Positions 10,717-40,826 of a stretch of DNA of 64,000 bases are shown here, in pieces. The notes below the pieces were generated by a model. The model saw only the letters and a list, made by a program, of their open reading frames with translations, was not told the origin of the DNA and ran no database searches. The first letter of the stretch is position 1; each line of letters begins with the position of its first letter. The DNA lies in assembly GCA_022695795.1 (NCBI GenBank), contig MU404185.1, positions 33,825-97,824 of the forward strand, in the 5' to 3' direction. A program made the position numbers and the translations under genes. This DNA comes from Biscogniauxia marginata. Lineage: Eukaryota > Ascomycota > Sordariomycetes > Xylariales > Xylariaceae.

Positions 10717-11761
10717 TCAGCTGCTCGGCTCGCTATACGACTGCGAAGAAGCGGCAGGAATACCAAAATTAGGTGATCCGTCGCTGTTCGACTCTACAGG
10801 CTGTATGTTCGTGTATCGGCTATCGTTGCAGGCGCCATCGCTGTTGCTCGTGGCATGGTACGCGTTCCAGGTCTGCGTGCCGTCAGGGCTCTGGAAGAAA
10901 CTGTTGTGCCCTGTGCCGTAGTTGCCGTTGGCGCTGGAGAAGACGCAGCCGTCGCTCTTGGTCCAGGCCGAGGCCTGCAACGGGTCCGTCGTGCCGTCCC
11001 ACGTCAGCAGACCCAGGCAATACGCAGCGGTCCAGCAGTACGAGGCAGAGTATGCGATGTACGTCGCCCCGCCGAAGTACAGCGCTGCGGGCCCTTCGTT
11101 GACGGGGGTAGACACAGTCTCCCACGCCTCCGTCGGCTGGGAGATCACATGAATGTCGCCGGTGAGACTAACGTAGTCGGAACCCAGCTTCTGGATGCAC
11201 AGCGATTGGTAAGTGACATCGTGGAAACATGAGAACAGCAGGTAATTTCCCCATGTGTTAAGGCGTAGAGTTGAACCGTCGATGGCCCACTCGTTAGTCA
11301 TCTGGCCTGCATAGGTGAAGTCGTCCCACGGCGTCGCACCACCTATATATTGCCCGGTTAAGCCTAGATTCACGTCGTTGTTGGTAGAGTCTTCACCACT
11401 CACCTTTCAGCGCGTGCAGACGCTGTCCATCCAAGTTGGCACTGACGCCAGCAGTGAAGTACACGTACCAGCTACCGTCAAAGTAGTGCACCTCGGGTGC
11501 CCAGACACTGCAGCAGCGAGATGCCTCGCTGCTCGAGTATATCGTTTTCTTAGTCGCGGTCTTCAAGCCTTCGACAGTAGTCGAGCGAGCAATCTGGACG
11601 CTACTCCAGGACGTTGTCATGATATAATAGTATCCATCGCTGTAAGTGACAAAAGGATCGCTACCGCCCGGACTACGGATCGGATTGTTCCAGGCGGCAG
11701 AAAGGTTGAAGAGACTCAACAGCGTCAGAAGAGACACAAACGACTTGTGGAAGAAACCCAT
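10717..11761 (-). CDS. Secreted GH43 family arabinofuranosidase
   Basis: Exons 11761-11404 and 11342-10717 over a 61-nt intron (GTGAGT...ATATAG, splitting a Gly codon), 327 residues. A signal peptide is visible at the N-terminus (hydrophobic LLTLLSLFNLSAA, cleavage near residue 23). The five-bladed beta-propeller GH43 signature residues are all present: base D35 (SDPFVTY), pKa modulator D141 (AIDGS), general acid E202 (NEGPAALY). Length and the WAPEVHYFDGSWYVYFTAG block fit fungal GH43 subfamily 26-like exo-alpha-1,5-L-arabinofuranosidases acting on arabinan side chains of pectin; the subfamily is my inference. A plant cell-wall enzyme fits a saprotrophic, endophytic or plant-pathogenic lifestyle. 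Confidence 0.9.
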
Positions 11762-25670: not shown

Positions 25671-26212
25671 TCAAGAATCTACAGGCGTGGTGTTGACAAC
25701 TTGGCCATCCTCGATATAACTATTCTCCCAGCCAATCTGGACCTCGGCTCGTCCAATATATATCCATCCTTTCTCAGATGCAACAACCACGTTTGCCCAG
25801 TCTGGGTCAGCCAGCATAGCCTTCAGCTTCTCGGGATCGCTCACCCAGTATGATGATGTCGCATCAGACTGGGAGAGGGTCCAGCCCGACAAGCCTGGCT
25901 TTGCCTCGCCGATTTCCTGTCTGAATAGCTCTCGCATAGAAGACGGCGTTATGTACTAGACCCATTGTTAACAATGTCACATTCATTTGCCTAACAAGCA
26001 AGCCAATGAAGGGAGGGCTATCGTGCTATACGTACCAGATCATAGTGCTCGACTCCATGTCTCTGGATGATTTTGATCATGCGAGGGATTTGTTCTTCTT
26101 GGTACCACCTAGAGAATTCTTTGTCGTCAACTGAAGGGAGTTTGTAGTGATGAATCGACCACTTAAGAAACATTTGCCGCTCCGGCTCGGTAGAGGGTTG
26201 TTGCTCCGCCAT
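25671..26212 (-). CDS. EthD-type dimeric alpha/beta barrel protein
   Basis: Exons 26212-26036 and 25955-25671 over an 80-nt intron (GTACGT...GTCTAG, phase 0), 153 residues. It starts MAEQQPSTE. The FLKWSIHHYKLPSVDDKEFS block, then IPRMIKIIQRHGVEHYDLY and a GWIYIGRAEVQIGW C-terminal block, fits fungal EthD-domain proteins: small ferredoxin-like barrels often found in polyketide clusters as dehydratases, decarboxylases or cyclisation aids. No polyketide synthase is in the window, so its substrate is unknown. The splice is supported by uninterrupted family-like sequence across the join. It lies about 5 kb from the RiPP locus, and membership in that cluster cannot be told. Confidence 0.75.
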
Positions 26213-28485: not shown

Positions 28486-30230
28486 TTACGAGCTACTACG
28501 ACCGTCTTCTTTGACCACCGTTCCCGAGGCTTCACATTTCTCATCATGCTTGCGAGCGTCTTCAACCCATTGCCATAATCGGTGGTCAGCAAGAAAACCT
28601 GGGTTCATCTCCGACATCAGGGTCAGCTTTCTTGCCACAGCGATGGCATCTGAGTTTGCAGTTCTGCTAGGAGGGAAACAAGCTCGCTCCTTCTCTTGTA
28701 GCTCCTCCTCTGTTATATCCTCCTCCTGTAGCTCAACAAGAAGTCTTTTGTTTTCATCCAAATTAGCTCGTTCGTGGAAGAGCCAAAGAATCCCCTTTGA
28801 GCTTCTAGCTTCTTCAGCACTCGTCTCGTATACGAGCTCAAACAACCTTCTAAAGTGCTCGTAGTCGTTTCTAGAAAGAAGCCGAACTAGTCGAGAGAAG
28901 TACCATATTCTTTCCGAAGTCTCCCAGAGGTTTGAATGCAAGAGTTCCGGAACAACTCTACTGTCACGTTAGCTAAAACCTGACCGAAACGCAGCAGTGA
29001 GGAATTCTGATGGTGGTGTAGCTGAGCCCCTTAGTGATGGAGTTGGAAGCAGCTCAGTAATAGGACCAGATGAAGCTGAACTCCAGTCAATAATGCATGT
29101 AATATTGAGATAGTCATCAACATAAAGATTGCCGAGATGGAGGTCCGGATGAGAGAGTGTGAAGCTGGTCCCCAGACCGCAGATGAGGCGAGGAATCATC
29201 TCACGCAAGAACTGCCCCGCAATGCTGTAGAATAGCATGTTCTTGCTATGATCGACTTTTTGGCCGATTGCCACAAAATTATTCCACCGTCTTACTGCTG
29301 TCTTGTGGCTCTCTATACTCCTGTAATACATCATATCAGGAACTGGTGCGAAGAAGACGTGGGGTGTGAGTGGCAGCTCCTGGGCATGAGATGTAAAGGC
29401 TAAAATAAGAGACACAAAGTAATCGTTTTCTTCGTCGAATGGGCCTCGGTCTAGATCAAGTGAGTCTCTCTCTTGCCAGGTAAGTGATGGCGAAAGACAT
29501 TCGCCAACAAAGTAACCCCCATTTCCATCGTTGAATATTGAACCAATCTTCTCAAAGCGGTGATCAGATAATTCTGACATGATGGCCCCAAGCTGGCTCA
29601 TGACTTTCTCACGGTCCTTGTCAGAGAGGGGCAGAGGTGGATCAGGATTTTGCAATCCTGATACTCGGGGGAGCTGGGACCAGTCGTAGGATCCCAGAGA
29701 ACGGCCAGTAGCTCTACTCTGAAGGATATATGGCACACCAATATCGTTATCACTGGATCCACTGAGATAAATTAATGTCGGGAATCTTGTAGCAAATCAT
29801 GTTACTTACCTGTATGAGTAGACCTCGGGAACCGGAACCGAGGTATAAGCCTTTAGATACATCAATGTAGATGCTTCACTCACAACGATCTTTGAAGCGG
29901 TTTCATCCGAGTAGAAACTATGGATACCCCTTATCGGAGAGCGAAAAACCCACTCAATCCCGTCATCGAAAGATATAAAAATGACCCAATTCAGACTGCC
30001 ACTCTTGGGCATTTGAGTCACGTCGCAAGTGCACGGTCGCCCGCGACGCTGTTCTGATAGAGAAAGAAGCGCTTCGAGATTGAAGTCTGCGAAATAATAA
30101 ACCTTATGCTTTATGACTGTGGAACTGCCAAGTTTTAATGTATCATGGCCGTGCTGCAGGCCAATACGTGTGTGTGTAGGGATGTTAAGGTGGAAGACAT
30201 AAGAGTGTGCTAGGTGAAGGCGAAATGGCG
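28486..30230 (-). pseudogene. Aminoglycoside-phosphotransferase-like kinase with one in-frame stop
   Basis: Fungal APH/choline-kinase-like family. Coding-like frame from about 30230 down to 29810, a 48-nt intron (29809-29762, GTAAGT...CTCAG), then 29761-28486. Kinase-like core: FNLEALLSLSEQRRGRPCTCD, the N-lobe SLNWVIFISFDDGIEWVFR, the Brenner motif HPDLHLGN and the metal-binding IIDW. A TAA at 28971-28969 interrupts FRSGFS / RDSRVVPELLHSNLWE; beyond it the same frame continues 161 codons to 28486 with family-like sequence, so this is a single nonsense change (CAA to TAA would be RIP-like). The first in-frame ATG (30021) lies inside the conserved region, and upstream coding-like sequence lacks an ATG, so the start is also missing or in an unseen exon. 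It could still make a truncated protein. Confidence 0.65.
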
Positions 30231-31451: not shown

Positions 31452-32680
31452 TTAGGGATTAAACCCCAATGTCCACGTGTCTGGATCGAGAGGATCGTTC
31501 ACTGCTCGATATGTAGGATCCCATTCTTCTACCACAGCTCTTTCCTTTGCCCATTCACGCACAACATCGAAATTCCGGCAAGTGTGCATGACATTCATCG
31601 AAGGCTGATATACGTTCTGTGCATCACTCCACTATAACCTACTTATTAGATAATGCAGTTGGGCATTGTACGCAGTCAGGAACTCGTAGGGCACTGGAAC
31701 TCCTGAACAATTTGGGCCAATACAGACTTTGTACTTACTGGTCACGCAAGTCAGTATTTTCGTCTAAACGATGAGTTTCTCATGGAATCTTTCGGTCGCT
31801 CACCTTGAAAGGGGATTGGAGCTAGATCCACACTGCAAGTCACGGATTGTCGAAGGTACTCGACACAGTGATTTATGTGATCGAGATTGTCATGAGATTG
31901 ATTTATATCTTTCAAATAACTCTCAGAGTAATATTCGGAATGGAGCAACTTGCGAATCATGTTCTAGCAAAAGATTATGAGGTCAACAATGACCTACAAG
32001 CCAAGCAATGCCAAGTATGACTTACTAGACAGTGAAGTGCGTGGAAGACATCTAACCCTACTACATATCGCTGTTGTTCGTCATGCGGTAGCATTGATGT
32101 CTTGTTTGGCAACTTTTCTGCCTCATCCCTTGAGATGGCCACAATTCCCACTTCAGCGTGACTAAGTCAGCTATCCTTGCATCATGGGTCATGATATCAT
32201 ACTGGAATAGAGATCCTCCCAATTCTTATCGAGCTCTGGAGATGGTGGTCCAGAGTATCCATTCGGATTGGAAGCTGATAAGGTAAAGAATTGCCGTTGT
32301 TCGTACTGAATTAGATGCTGCGCTGGACCTATTAGAATGCCTAAGTTAGAACTCGTATTTAAAAGAACTACCCCCAAGTTCGAATGCTAAAGGAGAAAGC
32401 ACTGACTGTATGGTGACTGATAACTTGATTCATAACTGGCCTGCAGCTGGAAGTAGTGGCCAGTCCATAACAGCACTGCTGTAAACAGCAGTATCCAAGG
32501 TGTTGCGCATATTATTCTGGAACCATGAAAGCACCGGCGCTGTATTCGATCACTTGGGAAGTCAAAGTCAGATGTCGAATGGACCAAGCGCTCTGTTTCC
32601 ATACTATACTTCAAAGAGTGCAATTCCTCGTTATGAAGATTGCCCCTTTGCGACGAGGAAGGGTCAGCCGGTGATGACAT
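31452..32680 (-). CDS. UstYa-family (DUF3328) oxidase-like protein 1
   Basis: DUF3328 proteins such as UstYa/UstYb act in oxidative macrocyclisation of fungal RiPPs (ustiloxin, asperipin, phomopsin). Exons 32680-32407, 32328-32203, 32150-32026, 31963-31804, at least one small exon within 31,740-31,690, and 31631-31452. The boundaries of the small exon are not resolved; GTGAGC at 31803 and TTATAG before 31631 are clear. ATG 32680 (MSSPADPSSS), a single membrane segment (ICATPWILLFTAVLLW), then SGPPSPELDKNWEDLY, the first catalytic-type motif HALHC (end of exon 3) and the second HINHCVEYLRQSVTC, plus a C-terminal HTCRNFDVVREWA. The two HxxHC motifs are the family hallmark. About 290 residues. 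It shares exon 2 (126 nt) and exon 3 (125 nt) lengths exactly with UstYa-like 3, indicating duplication. Confidence 0.85.
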
Positions 32681-33302
32681 GGTGAAAAATCGCAGGTAAC
32701 TTGGTTTAGAGCAAAAGTCTGAGAACCCGTACACTCCTGACAGACTGGTCTAACATGTCGAGGGACATCGGTGGATTTCTCATTCTATTGACTGGGCATC
32801 CTGCCGATGCCAAGCTATATATTGCTGCATGTCACAGCATGATTCGTCAACCTTGGCAAGTTGGTTTTCGTTGTGCATAAGACAGCCAAAAAAGACAGTA
32901 GCCGTTTACCCCTCGATGAGAGTCAAGCCATGTCACTGATGCTCGCCGATTAATCAAAACGTCGGGAATCAAGTGGTCACCTGTATCTATCATGGCCATA
33001 ACGAAGACCGGTTGTGGCCAGTGGCTCAGCCGACGGGAAGTACTTTATCCAATCAACAACCGATACGACAAATTTGACGAAAAGAAAAACTTGATGATTC
33101 GTCATGAAGATGCATGGCTTAGTCACTACTGATGTCTCACTTTAGGGAATATTTACAGAACCTGGAAATGAATGGAAATAAGAGTGATAGCTCCAATACG
33201 ATGTGTCTTGCCCAGTATTGGAATTATTAGCATTGCAGAGTCTAAATTGATCTATTATCTGAGACCTGCCTCAACCTACCTCCAATGAGATTGTCCGTAT
33301 TC
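32681..33302. other. Spacer between two UstYa-like genes
   Basis: Upstream region of UstYa-like 1 and 3' flank of UstYa-like 2 (tandem, same strand). No gene seen. Confidence 0.5.
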
Positions 33303-34182
33303 TCAACTCCTATCATGGTTCCGTGAGTGGTGCAAACCTATGCTATCTAGAGACCCATTGAATGAATTTTTCTTTGTCCAGTCAAGTATGCGATCAAAGT
33401 CACGGCACCTATGAGGTACTGCTATCTCTTGATACATCGTGTTCAGCGTCAAGTCCGCATTGCACATGAGCTCTTGTCTGATCCAATCGATACAGTGCGG
33501 AGCGTGTACCGTCCTCAAGTCAGGAAGATTATACTTATCTCCCTCTCCTGTAATAGCCCATTTCACCGCTTCCTAAGAATGTGTATAATATTAGAAATTG
33601 ATGGTTGTAACATCAAATGTTATTAACTTACCAGACAGTGCAGGCTGTGAAAGACACTCACTTGGTACAGCAAGTGACTGCTGTCAAGTGGTGAGGGCAT
33701 AGTCGCTTGGTCTGGGACTATAGTGCTGGTTGAAGGGATTGACACGATACCTCCTGAGACTATAATTATAGTCAGTATTATATATCAAGAGATCAGAATT
33801 TCACAGTGACGTACTGGGAATGAAGCTCCTCCAAAAGGTGTGATTGTGAATTCTGGCATCAATATCTTCGTGGTGAAAGATCACATCGAAGTCGACCGTT
33901 TTTGCATAATCATGTAGGGCCAGGTCTTCTAATGTTAACAATTCACGAATTTAAGGTATATATAAGATATTATCGCTCACATGGACGGGGAGGTATATCC
34001 TGCCAAGCTTGGTGTAGAGACACAGTCAAAAACAAAATGACAAAAAGCTCGACAATTTGAACTATGATGAAGATGAAACCAAAGGGTTTCGCAAATGGTA
34101 TACAAATTTTGGGCTGTCGGGGCGTCTCGTGATCGCCCTGGTCAATCGGGAGGTAGTCGCACGCTGATTCTGACACTGCCAT
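33303..34182 (-). CDS. UstYa-family (DUF3328) oxidase-like protein 2
   Basis: Exons 34182-33981, 33925-33815, 33759-33632, 33572-33303; introns start GTGAGC, GTACGT, GTAAGT and end GAAG, ATATAG-like and CTTAG. Phases join to 236 residues with no stop. It begins MAVSESACDYL. One membrane helix (FGFIFIIVQIVELFVILFL) gives a type II topology with the catalytic part in the secretory lumen. The family motifs HSLHC (end of exon 3) and HAPHCIDWIRQELMC are both intact, followed by HRCRDFDRILDW. The exon pattern differs from copies 1 and 3, so it is a more distant paralogue, comparable to the UstYa/UstYb pairs in known dikaritin clusters. It lies 1.2 kb downstream of the precursor gene on the same strand. 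Confidence 0.88.
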
Positions 34183-35397
34183 ATCTGGAGACTGGAAAAT
34201 ATGAGTTTCTCGTGGAAATGTTTATAGAAGGTATTTTGAAAAGAACCAGCCTGACGCAATGAGACTTCCTTCAGATAAGAACACAGATCCCAAGCGCTTA
34301 CTGCTGTCGGGGGATTGATATATATTAGCCACTCGTTCTGACAATTGAACCGATAGAGAAATCTCTATGTCTCCAGATATTTAGATTCGCCCTAATAATG
34401 CACTTCTAAGAACCATATCAAAGGCGGCTGAAGTATAGCATCGATTGGTCGATCACCTCTGCATGGCGCTATCTTTATGCAACAACATGAATACCGTCTT
34501 GGCACGGGTGATGATGGTCGTGTTATTTCATACAGCCTGCCACCTCGGCACTTCACCCACCAATCTATGATCAACGATGTCGCTTTACGGGGTTCAATGA
34601 CGCCCCATGATCCCTAGACTCTTGAATACCTAGCATAAGAGCATTGTATACACTGTAAGCGTGGTCTAATTGGGTAAGCTAATAGATCCAGTAGGACAAG
34701 TAGATTTCTGTGGGTTACAAGGGCACCACTCACTATCCCTAACCTAGTGTTTTGGAATTATGCCATGTGTTCAAGCTTCATATCAAATGGATACAGCATG
34801 TGTATAGTTCTCAACTCGAGAAACATGGCCAGACTTTCTCTATCGCTAATCAAACCAGTGGGAGATGAGATGCGAGCACAAGAAATATATACTAGTTGGG
34901 GTAATGACTGGCCCGCTAAAGACATTGCTCTTTAGAAGAATCCGTGGCTCAATATACACATTAGGCCATGCTAAATGTGCTAGGGGGATGAACGCTCCGA
35001 GACTACAAGGGAGATATTGCAGGATCGTATTTCGAATCTAAGCCTGGCAAAGGTAAAAGAATTTGATCATGGTCATCACTGAGCTTAGTTGTAAACTTCA
35101 TAAGTCGACTGAGCCGAGTTTGATAGACGAGTGTATAATTCTGTAAAATCAAAATACTACGTGAGGAAAGTCATAAGCTCTTCAAATCATAACAAACTAG
35201 CCTAGGCAAAACGAATGTGCAGTTCGACGGAAACCCAGTCAGATAATCCACACTCCCAAACGTAGACGCAACGCTATGATGTATCCCAAGGAACAGGCCC
35301 TGTGCTATGTCAATCGGTATCTAAACAATATTAGAGCTTAATGGCGACTGACCTAGAAGGGACCTACACATAGCTGATCTCCTTTCAAGTTTTCAGC
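34183..35397. other. Spacer between precursor gene and UstYa-like 2
   Basis: No supported gene; a 62-codon frame at 34747-34935 (+) has no recognisable features. Contains the 3' flank of the precursor gene. Confidence 0.45.
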
Positions 35398-35652
35398 TTA
35401 GCTCTGCTCCTCTCGATGGTCCCCGCGCTTGGCCTTTAGACCCCAGTTAACGAAGACGAGGTCAGGCACAGCCTCTTCCCGCTTGGCCTTTTCATCCCAG
35501 CCATAGAAGAAGACATCAGGCACGGCCTTGGTCTTGTCGTCCGCAGTGCGCACCTCGAAATTAGTTTCCGTGCCAACGTTAGGCGTTAGCGGAGCAGTAC
35601 TGCCAACTGCAGCAAGGACGAAGGTGGAAAGGTTGACAAGTCCGCGAACCAT
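35398..35652 (-). CDS. Dikaritin-type RiPP precursor peptide with two Kex2-bounded repeats
   Basis: 84 residues, single exon, start MVRGLVNLS. A signal peptide is evident (hydrophobic LSTFVLAAVGSTA, cleavage near 20). After a short leader (21-40) come two 18-residue repeats, residues 41-58 and 59-76 (DNA 35532-35479 and 35478-35425). They share A-V-P-D-x-x-F-x-x-W-x-x-K-A-K-R, i.e. eleven of sixteen identical positions, with variable residues inside the core (VFFYGW and LVFVNW). Each repeat ends in KAKR, a Kex2-type dibasic site; repeat 2 starts EEA, a typical aminopeptidase-trimmed spacer after KR. This is the architecture of UstA-like KexB-processed precursors. Position among three UstYa genes makes the assignment strong. 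The F-x-x-W core does not match the ustiloxin, phomopsin or asperipin cores I know. The mature structure is unknown. Confidence 0.88.
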   Translation of the reverse strand: MVRGLVNLSTFVLAAVGSTAPLTPNVGTETNFEVRTADDKTKAVPDVFFYGWDEKAKREEAVPDLVFVNWGLKAKRGDHREEQS

Positions 35653-36568
35653 GACGTTGAGAATTTAGTGTTTTTTTTTTGGTTATATGGTAGTATGAGA
35701 TGGATATTGAAGATAGTATGTGTACACTACAAGAACTATTGAGCAGTAGGGCATCGGGGCGGCATATATAGATAATTTCACAGCTTGATAGCACCTGAGA
35801 TCTTTGAACTCCATATATCAGAAGGCGGGCTACTACCACTTTACGTCTGCACCCCTGCTGCATAGCATTTATTCATGATTGATAGCACATGCCATGGTGA
35901 ATCATGAGGTACTAACCATGAGAACATACCAGAGAATGCTCCTACCGACTCGATTTCCGTCCTCGACCTGCCACCAAGCGGCAGAGCGGCGTGGCACAAC
36001 ATGAAAAGAATTCTCGTTGTGCGTTTTTGGCTGAGGTGCGTCGCATCGAAATCAGCCAATATTCGGAACAAGACTTAAAATTCTATAAGATATAGCGATG
36101 CACCCGATCAATAAATATATCGGTCGCCGAACTGGCGCCCGAAGGCCATGGATCAACACCTTCCTTCCTAAAGAAAAAGAAATTGCAGCTCAGCAATGTG
36201 CCCGATTGGTACAGCAAGTCAACGAAGATGCAATGTTTATTACTCCATTATGTTCTCAATTACGCATTAATATCAGCGACATTTAGAATTCCGGATCTTC
36301 CTGTCACTCGACCGCAACAGTGGCCACGGAGTGGAAGTGTGTAGCCGGATGAGCACTATCGAAGGCCGTCAAGAGATATCGTCCTAATAATCAGTCTCTG
36401 GTTGGGAGTCTGAAGCTAAGCCCTCGGCGAAGGACATTTTACTTCTGTACCTCTTGTCGACATATTGTTAGCTTTGATTCAATCCCCTTTCGATCTTTTT
36501 CTTCGGCTGTTTGGGAAGAGTCGATGAACTTACGATAGTGGCTGAGACGCCTTCGTTGGTCCGCGGAG
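35653..36568. promoter_or_regulatory. Divergent promoter precursor / UstYa-like 3
   Basis: A 916-bp spacer between the precursor (-) and UstYa-like 3 (+). TATA-like TATATAT at 35764-35770 lies about 112 bp upstream of the precursor ATG. A palindromic CGGTCGCCG at 36121-36129 resembles a CGG-N3-CCG binding site of Zn2Cys6 regulators and lies near the middle. Open frames at 35841-36071 (-) and 36098-36286 (+) have no domain. Confidence 0.5.
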
Positions 36569-37810
36569 ATGGATCGACTCGAGAGAGAAGCGCTGTTCAA
36601 TGGCCATTTTACACAGATTAAAGACCGCCCCGATGAGTGTCAAGATAGCAGTGGCTTCACCAGGAAGCGATATACTGTTTGTCATATTATCAATCCGTGC
36701 ATTGTCATTCCATGGTTTCTCGTTGTTGTCCTATCAATCATCAATTTGTCACTCCTAACAAAAGTCCACAACCAAAATGGCACTGGAATTGCAACAGAGG
36801 CTTTATACAGTAAGTCTGCCCCTCCTTAGTCGCGATTCAAGATATATTCCCAGCGAAGAAGATAGTTAAAGCTGATGGGAATGAAACTAAGGCCCGGTCG
36901 AACACCTCATCCAGCATGAGGAACGGTTATTTCAGTCATCCTTGAGTCCGAACCTGACTCCATATCAAGGAATCCCGTCTCCAGAAGTTGACGGAAAGTG
37001 GGAAGACCTCTATCTGAGTAAGTCTTCAATTAATATGTTACTTAACCCTGGAATGACGGTTCAATCGTTGATAGTGTGCTTCATTGGTGGGTATAGTGGG
37101 AGATATAGCAATTTCTAGCGACGAAGCCAACAAGTTATTGAATCAGACAGCAATGCTACGAAATGACCCACAGGAGAGATACATAATTAATATTGATGTC
37201 TTTCACTCCCTTCATTGTCTGGTGAGTAAGCTTGAGTCATGCTAAGATCTTCCCCATGCCCGAACTTAACGACTCGACTGTCATGGTCACTGACCCTAGC
37301 CGAAAGCATTCACTCCGGAAAGTTGTATATTCAGAATATTACCTTGCGGAGTCTGCTGCGACCATAAAAAAGCCTCCTGGTTTTGATGTGAACCACTTGG
37401 ATCATTGTGTTGATCATCTCCGCCAATCACTCATGTGCGGTGTAGATATATCGGTAATGCCCTTTGAAGGTCAGATATACAATTTCGGGATACACTAAGT
37501 AGTACTAACACCTATCCTTAGTAAGAATCCCTCAATTGACCTCCCTTTATTTGCTAGTCGTATCTCGACCACTATTCACCTCTCTATAAGCGCGCCACGA
37601 TTATAGTTTCACACCAGCTTGATATCCTCTTCAGCACACCAATTAATTAATACTCTTTAGTGGTCAGAATCTAGACATAAGTACGTACCAGAGTTCGAAG
37701 TACCTCATATCTGCAGGAACTTTGATTTGATTCACGATTGGGCACGTCAGCATGCAGTGACGGAGAATCGCAATGGAGAAATCTTGTCAGAGGAAGTAGT
37801 CACAGAGTGA
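36569..37810 (+). CDS. UstYa-family (DUF3328) oxidase-like protein 3
   Basis: Exons 36569-36809, 36892-37017, 37097-37221, 37307-37469, a small exon probably 37523-37557, and 37661-37810; splice phases are consistent. It starts MDRLEREALF. Membrane helix CIVIPWFLVVVLSIINLSLL, then PVEHLIQHEERLFQ, IPSPEVDGKWEDLY, the first motif HSLHC at the end of exon 3, the second HLDHCVDHLRQSLMC, and a C-terminal HICRNFDLIHDWA. Both HxxHC motifs are intact. Exons 2 and 3 are 126 and 125 nt, the same as in UstYa-like 1, and the residues match well (VAISRDEA versus IAISSDEA), so these two are recent paralogues on opposite strands flanking the precursor. The 35-nt small exon is tentative. About 280 residues. 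Confidence 0.85.
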
Positions 37811-39194: not shown

Positions 39195-40826
39195 TTAGTC
39201 CCTCTCTAACCCGAACTCTGTCTGCAGGTCAGTCCGCAAGGTGATTTCCTTTATCGTCATGCCGATCAGTAAACCGAGAAGGGAAAATCCGATGGCGACC
39301 TGCCAGAAGAGCTTCAAGCTGTCCACGTAAACGCTCTTCACCGTGGCTTTGAGGTCCGGGTTACGATTTAGCGAAGCCATAAAGTCGCCCGTGGCTAAGG
39401 CATAAGCTCCGCCGTTAGCTAAACGCCTTCGTATATCTAGGTCCTCGACCCGAACATTAACGCGGGAGTTAAAAATAACAGCTAGAATAGCCACACCCCA
39501 TACGCCACCAAAGCTACGAACGAATCCCCATGTGGCTGTGGCCACAACTTAGTCTAATTCTATCAATATTGCTTAGATCGCCGGGAGAGTAATTATCACC
39601 AACATACCGGCTCCCGCGACACCGATGCATTGCACTCCAGCCCAATATGCAGTTAAGTAATTCTCGTTAAGCCGGCTATAAAGCCCAAATAAGAGGGCAA
39701 ATGCGGACGTGCCGAGAAAAAACCAAGAACGATAACGGCCAATTTTCGAGATTCCTATACCAGCAGCTATTACGAACGGCATAAACACGGCTACGAACGA
39801 AAAGAGGTTAACTCCTAATATGGTGGAGTCACACTCTAAAACAACCTGAAATAAACTAGCAAAAAATATGTAGTCCAGTATAAAAACATAAACTAGATAA
39901 ATGTCATAGCAAATCCGCCTACAGACGTTCTATTTGAGAATATTCTAATAAGCATAGTTAGCTTTGCAACTAAAGTTATAAACTCTACTAATAAAGGCTA
40001 TCAAGCCTAGGAGACCAAAAATCGAAGGTATCAATGTCCTTCACGATAACCATAGAAATTCGACGCCACCCCAAATTAAAGCCAAGAAAACAGAAACGAC
40101 GGATATAATAAGGAAGGCATTCCCCCCAAAATCAACGCGTCTTAATGAATTCTGAGCGCTATCTTTAATATAACGGACTCTAAACAGCAATGCTAATAAC
40201 ACCTATACTACAACAGCCATTAGAAGGTTTAAGTAAAATACCTATCGCTAGTTAACACGCTAAGTAAAGACACCGCCGATGAAAGGTCCGAGAACAACAG
40301 CGACTATATAAGTAATGAATATAATACTTATGTAATTAGGTCGCTCTCGTAAAGGAACCAGGTCAACAACAATAATCTCAATGAGAATATTAATATCTCC
40401 TCTACTAATGCCTTTAATGACCCGGCCCGTAATCAGCACAGTTAAGTTTGGGGCGGGACCAGACATTGCAGAGCCAGCCGCGAACAGGAAAACAGCTAGG
40501 AGGGTTAAGCTGCGACGGCCGAATATATTAGCTGTTTAACTATACAACGGTTAGAAGGCTGTCGTGGTAAAAAAAATATAAGCATTAGCCACCCATACAT
40601 ATGCGTAACTAGACCCAAGGTCCTTGATAATCGATGGCATCGCGGTGCTAATGACAGAAACATCCAAAGTAGACAAGACTGATGCGATGGACAAGGAGAG
40701 AATGATGGCCTGATTGCGTTAGCCTAGCCTCGGAGAAGTATTCATTTCCATTGTATATACCCAGAAGCGCCATGAATGGCTGTTCTTGGAAGAGGAATCC
40801 TCCGGGGCTGGGGCGGAAGATGTCAT
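39195..40826 (-). pseudogene. Decayed MFS drug-type transporter
   Basis: Starts at ATG 40826 (MTSSAPAPEDSS). Traces of a 14-span-type MFS exporter: SLSIASVLSTLDVSVIS (TM1, D-x-S-V-I-S pattern), AYVWVANAY, LITGRVIKGISRGDINILIE (motif A/C-like), a mid region around 39573-39788 (FMPFVIAAGIGISKIGRYRS) and a preserved 3' part 39545-39195 (FVRSFGGVWGVAILAVIFN through the C-terminus GLERD). The frame is broken by several stops of the TAA/TAG kind, the first at 40721-40719 where CAA to TAA explains it; TA enrichment is typical of RIP. It sits 15 bp from an LTR. As the only transporter of the RiPP locus it was probably its exporter; now non-functional in this strain, if the assembly is right. Confidence 0.8.

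Follow-up and report, generated by a model that had tools for sequence, protein, structure and literature searches.

Positions 31452-37810 of a 64,000-nucleotide stretch of the genome of the wood-dwelling fungus Biscogniauxia marginata (bases 33825-97824 of contig MU404185.1, here C131, in an assembly of 45.3 Mb and 229 contigs; the whole stretch is called the window) probably hold a compact dikaritin-type locus for a ribosomally synthesised and post-translationally modified peptide (RiPP). The locus consists of one precursor open reading frame (ORF) and three spliced genes of the UstYa family (PF11807, DUF3328), and its ends coincide with the stop codons of the UstYa genes named here A (31452) and C (37810). 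Dikaritins are RiPPs made from Kex2-processed repeat proteins and cyclised by UstYa homologues, five having been reported by 2022 (PMC10512285). Four genomic features of the class are found here, namely a secretory-type N terminus, repeats each followed by Lys-Arg (KR), adjacent UstYa genes and an intact HxxHC(x)nHxxHC arrangement; judged from the genes, membership is well supported, the chemical sense of the term resting with the product. The likely product of the cluster is a cyclic peptide that contains a building block not yet described, and we infer that the three oxidases cyclise it, a qualified assignment because UstYa proteins also hydroxylate, chlorinate and desaturate their substrates (PMC12435403, PMC12048977, PMC10512285). 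A preliminary description of the stretch had noted an 84-residue, two-repeat precursor with a signal peptide and three spliced DUF3328 genes with both HxxHC motifs, two on the precursor's strand and one divergent, and re-examination of the window bears this out: the ORF and its 18-residue repeats are recovered, the leader is signal-like, and PF11807 scores, motifs and strands of the three genes agree with what had been described.

The N terminus of the precursor is hydrophobic, and a crude filter allows plausible cleavage after residue 20; the precursor also carries two imperfect 18-residue repeats, TKAVPDVFFYGWDEKAKR and EEAVPDLVFVNWGLKAKR, each with KR at its end. The repeat-to-repeat score is 43, a value reached by none of 5001 residue shuffles that left residues 1-20 and the KR pairs untouched. 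A repeat scan of single-exon frames in the window and at 16 further UstYa loci of this genome examined 1201 frames that start with ATG, with nested starts as separate entries; 144 of them passed the crude signal filter, and three of these scored at least 20: a seven-repeat precursor on contig C39 (90), the present precursor (43) and an ORF on the plus strand at 10855-11232 (23), the last regarded as a spurious chance hit. That the scan recovers the seven-repeat precursor indicates that it is able to find real ones. When compared with plasmids the precursor gave no match, as expected.

Nine candidates yielded a precursor family of seven at E<=1, comprising the window's own and six relatives of 64-79% identity. 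Four of the six are named, from Eutypa lata, Xylariaceae sp. FL0662B, Biscogniauxia mediterranea and Hypoxylon rubiginosum, all Xylariales genera, with the order confirmed for E. lata, B. marginata and H. rubiginosum. The preliminary description had made its reading depend on homologues of the short frame having repeats and a signal peptide, and they do keep a signal-like leader and the repeats. Over the seven rows invariant columns number 14/20 in the signal, 10/21 in the leader, 7/10 in core 1 and 4/8 in the spacer, followed by 2/10 in core 2, 0/6 in the stretch after it and 0/8 in the tail, these last three counts being low partly because one relative, P0006, stops early. Mean identity to the window precursor is 0.83 for core 1, 0.78 for the signal, 0.77 for the leader, 0.70 for core 2, 0.62 for both spacer and tail, and lowest (0.42) for the GLKAKR after core 2. 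Core 1 reads VPD[V/A/I]FFY[G/A/N]W in all seven sequences; the core 2 Trp is present in five, P0004 having Ser there and P0006 ending before it.

Core 1 is probably the main product and core 2 a related, less constrained one. A stricter version, in which core 1 alone works and core 2 is a decaying copy, so that this lineage makes one cyclic peptide, is quite possible if not the favoured form: the universal retention of core 1, the fate of core 2 in P0004 and P0006 and the tally of invariant columns all point that way, whereas the core 2 Trp and its following KR are kept in the window and in four of the six relatives, and in P0006 the early end may be no more than the edge of a contig. The earlier proposal of two products from one precursor is consequently the weaker part of that reading, and core 1 itself has no preceding Kex2 site.

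That the core class is unfamiliar among described dikaritins, as had been remarked, stands in so far as the core strings occur in no relevant paper among the matches listed. VPDVFFY, VPDVFF and AVPDLVF have no occurrence at all in those literature matches (subscription journals lay outside the scope), and within the same scope the literature on dikaritins and UstYa holds no description of the present precursor. FFYGW does occur in an unrelated designed self-assembling anti-tumour peptide (PMC10813321), and the other matches to it are, by title, mostly copy-number studies. The main text of a population-genomics paper on Eutypa lata (PMC9007359) contains neither "RiPP" nor "DUF3328". Cyclobiscognioxin A, a cyclic pentapeptide (Phe, three Leu, Ile) of another Biscogniauxia (PMC12783183), was set aside as a product, its composition fitting neither core 1 nor core 2.

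The three UstYa genes lie no more than 4 kb from the precursor and score well over the PF11807 cut-off of 25 bits (A 186, B 74 and C 164, the A and C models having been scored with provisional last introns), the match of B being limited to a C-terminal stretch, 127-216. Each has two intact HxxHC motifs, a pair that work on CctR describes as the binuclear copper site of the family (PMC12435403) and that is found in 114 of 117 proteins from the searches for relatives of A, B and C, P0008 (A itself) included. The spliced translation of A is identical to P0008, which is F5X99DRAFT_400360 of B. marginata, and B aligns end to end with a relative's P0113 (95% over 213 trimmed columns). An AlphaFold model of A built on a 39-row alignment (mean pLDDT 76, pTM 0.62) predicts one long N-terminal helix and then the HxxHC helices, 167-182 and 199-218, which resembles the helix layout described for CctR (PMC12435403); the model of B was poor (mean pLDDT 54) and was not used. 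A sequence search of solved structures with A gave no match at E up to 1. A tree of 105 rows places A, B and C each with its own counterparts (support 100/99, 100/97 and 100/100), with A and C in one supported group of seven rows together with two Apiospora proteins (100/96), while B is remote from them and groups with three further Apiospora proteins; its branch is long and was flagged by the program as possibly misplaced.

Pairs of these genes recur in other genera, which supports the dikaritin-type reading given earlier. Precursor P0007 and A-type P0009 of H. rubiginosum are on contigs of equal size (188789), as are precursor P0003 and B-type P0113 of Xylariaceae sp. FL0662B (213409; locus numbers 588529 and 588532) and B-type P0114 and C-type P0115 of Daldinia decipiens (452870). 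Equal sizes within one species suggest, strongly if indirectly, that the members of a pair share a contig.

For making the product the precursor would enter the secretory pathway and a Kex2-type protease would cleave after KR58 and KR76. Given where the KR pairs lie, Kex2 alone would yield two pieces, a long one (residues 21-58) that joins the leader to core 1 and one of 18 residues that holds core 2, and because no Kex2 site stands ahead of core 1 additional trimming would be required there; Kex1-type and other exopeptidases may trim the pieces, with an extra cut to release core 1 at its N-terminal end. The membrane-bound, copper-dependent A, B and C would then oxidise VPDxFFYxW and, where intact, also VPDxVFVxW, most likely so as to close a side-chain macrocycle at Tyr or Trp, before the product is exported or secreted.

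A number of points weigh against a dikaritin-type locus. The precursor has two repeats only, and none of the seven precursors has a dibasic pair anywhere from the end of the signal peptide to core 1 (P0007 carries KK in an extension ahead of the aligned start). All four genes are seen together only in the present window, with no more than pairs of them elsewhere, and no UstYa counterpart is named from E. lata or B. mediterranea despite the precursor being in both; the searches were non-exhaustive, using limited exact words and giving one name per 90% cluster, so that missing names are no proof of absence. Pfam scans of 16 window reading frames, without a contig-wide search, gave no peptidase or methyltransferase, and the sole accessory gene in those frames, which include the precursor, is a transporter relic; an older five-gene definition lists tyrosinase, methyltransferase, transporter and peptidase, and working loci lack some of these (PMC12048977). 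Foldseek with the predicted fold of A gave no solved structure at E<=0.001 among 47 listed. The locus is known from its genes, with no product assigned, and the hint of transcription considered below covers C of a relative and does not include the precursor.

An improbable alternative makes the precursor a secreted, linear, pheromone-like signalling peptide released by Kex2, the UstYa genes acting on something else. Alpha-pheromone precursors can indeed have few repeats, from one upward (PMC6339444), and modification at the present locus is deduced from the sequence, but precursor and UstYa gene occur on equal-size contigs in two further genera, and pheromone-type precursors almost never adjoin DUF3328 genes (PMC7329392), of which three are neighbours here. 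The precursor moreover gave no Pfam family when scanned, and by eye its repeats have neither a Cys pair nor a pheromone-like motif. Highly improbable is a setting in which the UstYa genes serve a polyketide or non-ribosomal pathway, as such proteins also can (PMC12435403, PMC12048977), and the short secreted protein is effector-like and has no connection with them, because among the best candidates scored 0/23 condensation and 0/70 ketosynthase matches of the genome fall on C131 (a backbone gene could sit on another contig) while a precursor is present, its core repeats followed by KR and its relatives co-occurring with UstYa genes. Tyrosinase likewise has 0/13 genome matches on C131 among the best candidates scored. 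Overall the interpretation as a dikaritin-type locus keeps its support from anatomy, conservation and the pairs in relatives, and is weakened in respect of the two products. Coordinates are collected in Table 1.

Table 1. Features of the locus, and a second precursor of the same genome. Positions are those of the window unless a locus or contig is given.
Feature	Position	Strand	Remarks
Precursor coding sequence	35398-35652	minus	84 aa, one exon
Signal-peptide-like N terminus, residues 1-20, MVRGLVNLSTFVLAAVGSTA	35593-35652	minus	crude hydropathy/cleavage filter and conservation
Core 1, AVPDVFFYGW, residues 43-52	35497-35526	minus	7/10 columns invariant in 7 rows
Kex2-type KR after core 1, residues 57-58	35479-35484	minus	7/7 rows
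Core 2, AVPDLVFVNW, residues 61-70	35443-35472	minus	2/10 columns invariant
Kex2-type KR after core 2, residues 75-76	35425-35430	minus	6/7 rows; P0006 ends earlier
Divergent region, precursor start to gene C start	35653-36568		916 bp; position only
UstYa gene A, 287 aa	31452-32680	minus	HALHC 170, HINHC 204
Gene A exons	32680-32407, 32328-32203, 32150-32026, 31963-31805, 31631-31452	minus	
UstYa gene B, 236 aa	33303-34182	minus	HSLHC 142, HAPHC 170
Gene B exons	34182-33981, 33925-33815, 33759-33632, 33572-33303	minus	
UstYa gene C, 267 aa	36569-37810	plus	divergent from precursor; HSLHC 159, HLDHC 194
Gene C exons	36569-36809, 36892-37017, 37097-37221, 37307-37468, 37661-37810	plus	
Proposed [D1,2] stwintron of A	31632-31804	minus	173 nt; external G, internal 31803-31738, remainder 31737-31632
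Proposed [D1,2] stwintron of C	37469-37660	plus	192 nt; external G, internal 37470-37521, remainder 37522-37660
Seven-repeat precursor	L020 910-1467; repeat part C39:267012-267422	minus	

The last introns of A and C fit no single simple GT-AG intron. The obvious GT-AG choice shifts the reading frame in both, and with the frame kept as in P0008 (PFQ/W, for A) and P0112 (PFE/W, for C) the introns start with GG. On their sequence they are best read as [D1,2] stwintrons, with an internal GT...AG intron of 66 nt in A and 52 nt in C followed by TAAG..., and external donors, once the internal intron is excised, of GTAAGT (A) and GTAAGA (C). When the middle of the intron is shuffled, a stwintron-type joint arises in 9% of cases for A and 2.4% for C, and so the case draws its strength from the position, phase and outcome shared by the two genes. 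The two occupy the same position in paralogous genes and have no detectable sequence likeness, and comparison with other DNA gave chance-level matches only. [D1,2]-type stwintrons have been described from Hypoxylaceae and Xylariaceae, as have sequence-unrelated stwintrons at conserved positions (PMC12403724); DUF3328, UstY and Biscogniauxia are absent from the main texts of PMC12403724 and PMC9024468. Deposited models of two relatives break at the stwintron position, P0115 of D. decipiens ending PFEVV and P0009 of H. rubiginosum having an out-of-frame tail, and stwintrons in A and C would explain this loss of the C terminus.

Other models were dropped: a gene A of six exons, the fifth only 25 nt long and the acceptor GGAG, which P0008 contradicts by its PFQ/W; a gene C with the acceptor moved to phase 1, contradicted by the PFE/W of the spliced P0112; five single-intron alternatives for the last intron of A, all of which truncate the protein; and a non-canonical GG-AG last intron, where the stwintron reading needs standard sites only. 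Introns 33926-33980, 32151-32202 and 37222-37306 end in AAG past a nearer TAG that is only a few bases away from where the branch point probably is, and the AAG choice is supported by P0008 for A and by the relatives' P0113 and P0112 for B and C. P0112 is 88% identical to C and has 269 residues (810 nt with the stop) on a contig of 986 nt, too short for an intron-bearing C given that gene C spans 1242 bases; unless introns have been lost, the contig probably derives from spliced RNA, in which case the relative's C is transcribed.

The left 24 kb of the window has matches to ordinary genes (histone deacetylase, GH43, Arb1, inositol polyphosphate kinase). Left of the locus, on the minus strand, there is an EthD-domain gene (PF07110, 35 bits) at 25671-26212 with two exons (26212-26036 and 25955-25671), and an APH-type phosphotransferase match (25 bits, cut-off 23.2) at 28969-29796 stands between the ordinary genes and the UstYa cluster, also on the minus strand. 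To the right an AT-rich block (41000-64000) reaches the contig end, the last 22-23 kb being at 16-30% GC in the bins checked. In 1-kb bins TA/AT is 0.60-0.93 and (CA+TG)/(AC+GT) 1.08-1.41 at 31-38 kb, and at 41-48 kb these are 1.14-1.62 and 0.30-0.84, which is like the signature of repeat-induced point mutation (RIP), and so the locus lies beside and not within the RIP-affected block; bins to its left (24 and 28 kb) are likewise high in TA/AT, at 1.24-1.27. Adjoining the locus at the edge of the AT-rich block is a relic of an MFS-type transporter (39195-40760, minus), with 13 stop codons in one 512-codon frame, the final stop counted, and two open pieces that match MFS_1 at 16 and 31 bits, both below the cut-off of 33.4; given so many in-frame stops it is probably not the exporter. 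A shared promoter motif is not established: the four upstream regions tested have no 8-mer in common, and they share four 7-mers (two sequences, each with its reverse complement), where shuffling gave 0.57 on average and 4 at most.

Among described systems the asperipin-2a locus of Aspergillus flavus is alike in being a small cluster with a Kex2-type precursor, a UstYa oxidase and no tyrosinase listed (PMC12048977, PMC10512285, PMC9233826). It differs in having one UstYa gene where there are three here, and reductase and transporter genes of which no intact one was found in the present frames scanned. The asperipin-2a core is likewise Tyr-rich and aromatic; it is unrelated to the present cores and is not known to contain Trp. 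The epichloecyclins (gigA, Epichloe) are likewise short cyclic peptides from a Kex2-type precursor with a DUF3328 protein in the cluster (PMC12048977), but are nonapeptides whose ring joins Tyr to the Ile at the N terminus (PMC9233826), and the present Pro/Phe/Tyr/Trp core has no such Ile. Ustiloxin and phomopsin loci share several UstYa genes (2 and 5, PMC7329392) and Kex2-processed repeats, in contrast to which the ustiloxin precursor has 16 repeats (PMC10512285) to the two here, and a tyrosinase is needed there, for which the present contig has no match. The C39 precursor of the same genome also has Kex2-type repeats and lies about 3.4 kb from a UstYa match (C39:270829), but its cores, seven nearly identical copies of QFVIDGYEET with dibasic sites at most of their boundaries (one is KH), are the ordinary form of the class. 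An ustiloxin-like locus, possibly the same as the present one, was reported in H. rubiginosum by Kuhnert et al. with precursor templates including PhomA and GigA (PMC8403587).

The largest survey consulted predicted 7878 Kex2-processed repeat precursors of 838 types, 22% of them near DUF3328 genes (PMC7329392). Both this survey and that of PMC6339444 require at least three repeats between Kex2 sites, in the latter to reduce false positives, so that the minimum is a detection rule more than a definition. The present precursor has two, and a two-repeat family would escape such surveys; their main texts contain no Eutypa and no Xylari-, and PMC7329392 mentions Hypoxylon a single time, for a type that spans many genera and has at least three repeats.

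The locus then adds a member to a large and little explored class. Its core family is aromatic, includes Trp and did not turn up in the literature searched, and since that family falls below the three-repeat cut the class is probably larger than has been counted. Much more tentatively, and on balance rather doubtfully, it may stand for an overlooked Xylariales class of two-copy UstYa peptides, with a Phe-Tyr-x-Trp core closed via Trp or two adjacent aromatics, three cooperating UstYa enzymes and an N-side release that does not use Kex2. The locus supplies exact target masses: if the cores end as given here, the calculated linear [M+H]+ is 1200.572 for AVPDVFFYGW, 1129.535 for VPDVFFYGW and 1159.615 for AVPDLVFVNW, less 2.016 for each crosslink. 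It also supplies a core with invariant Phe-Phe-Tyr-x-Trp in seven sequences, and with three distinct UstYa enzymes to one small precursor the role of each UstYa becomes directly testable.

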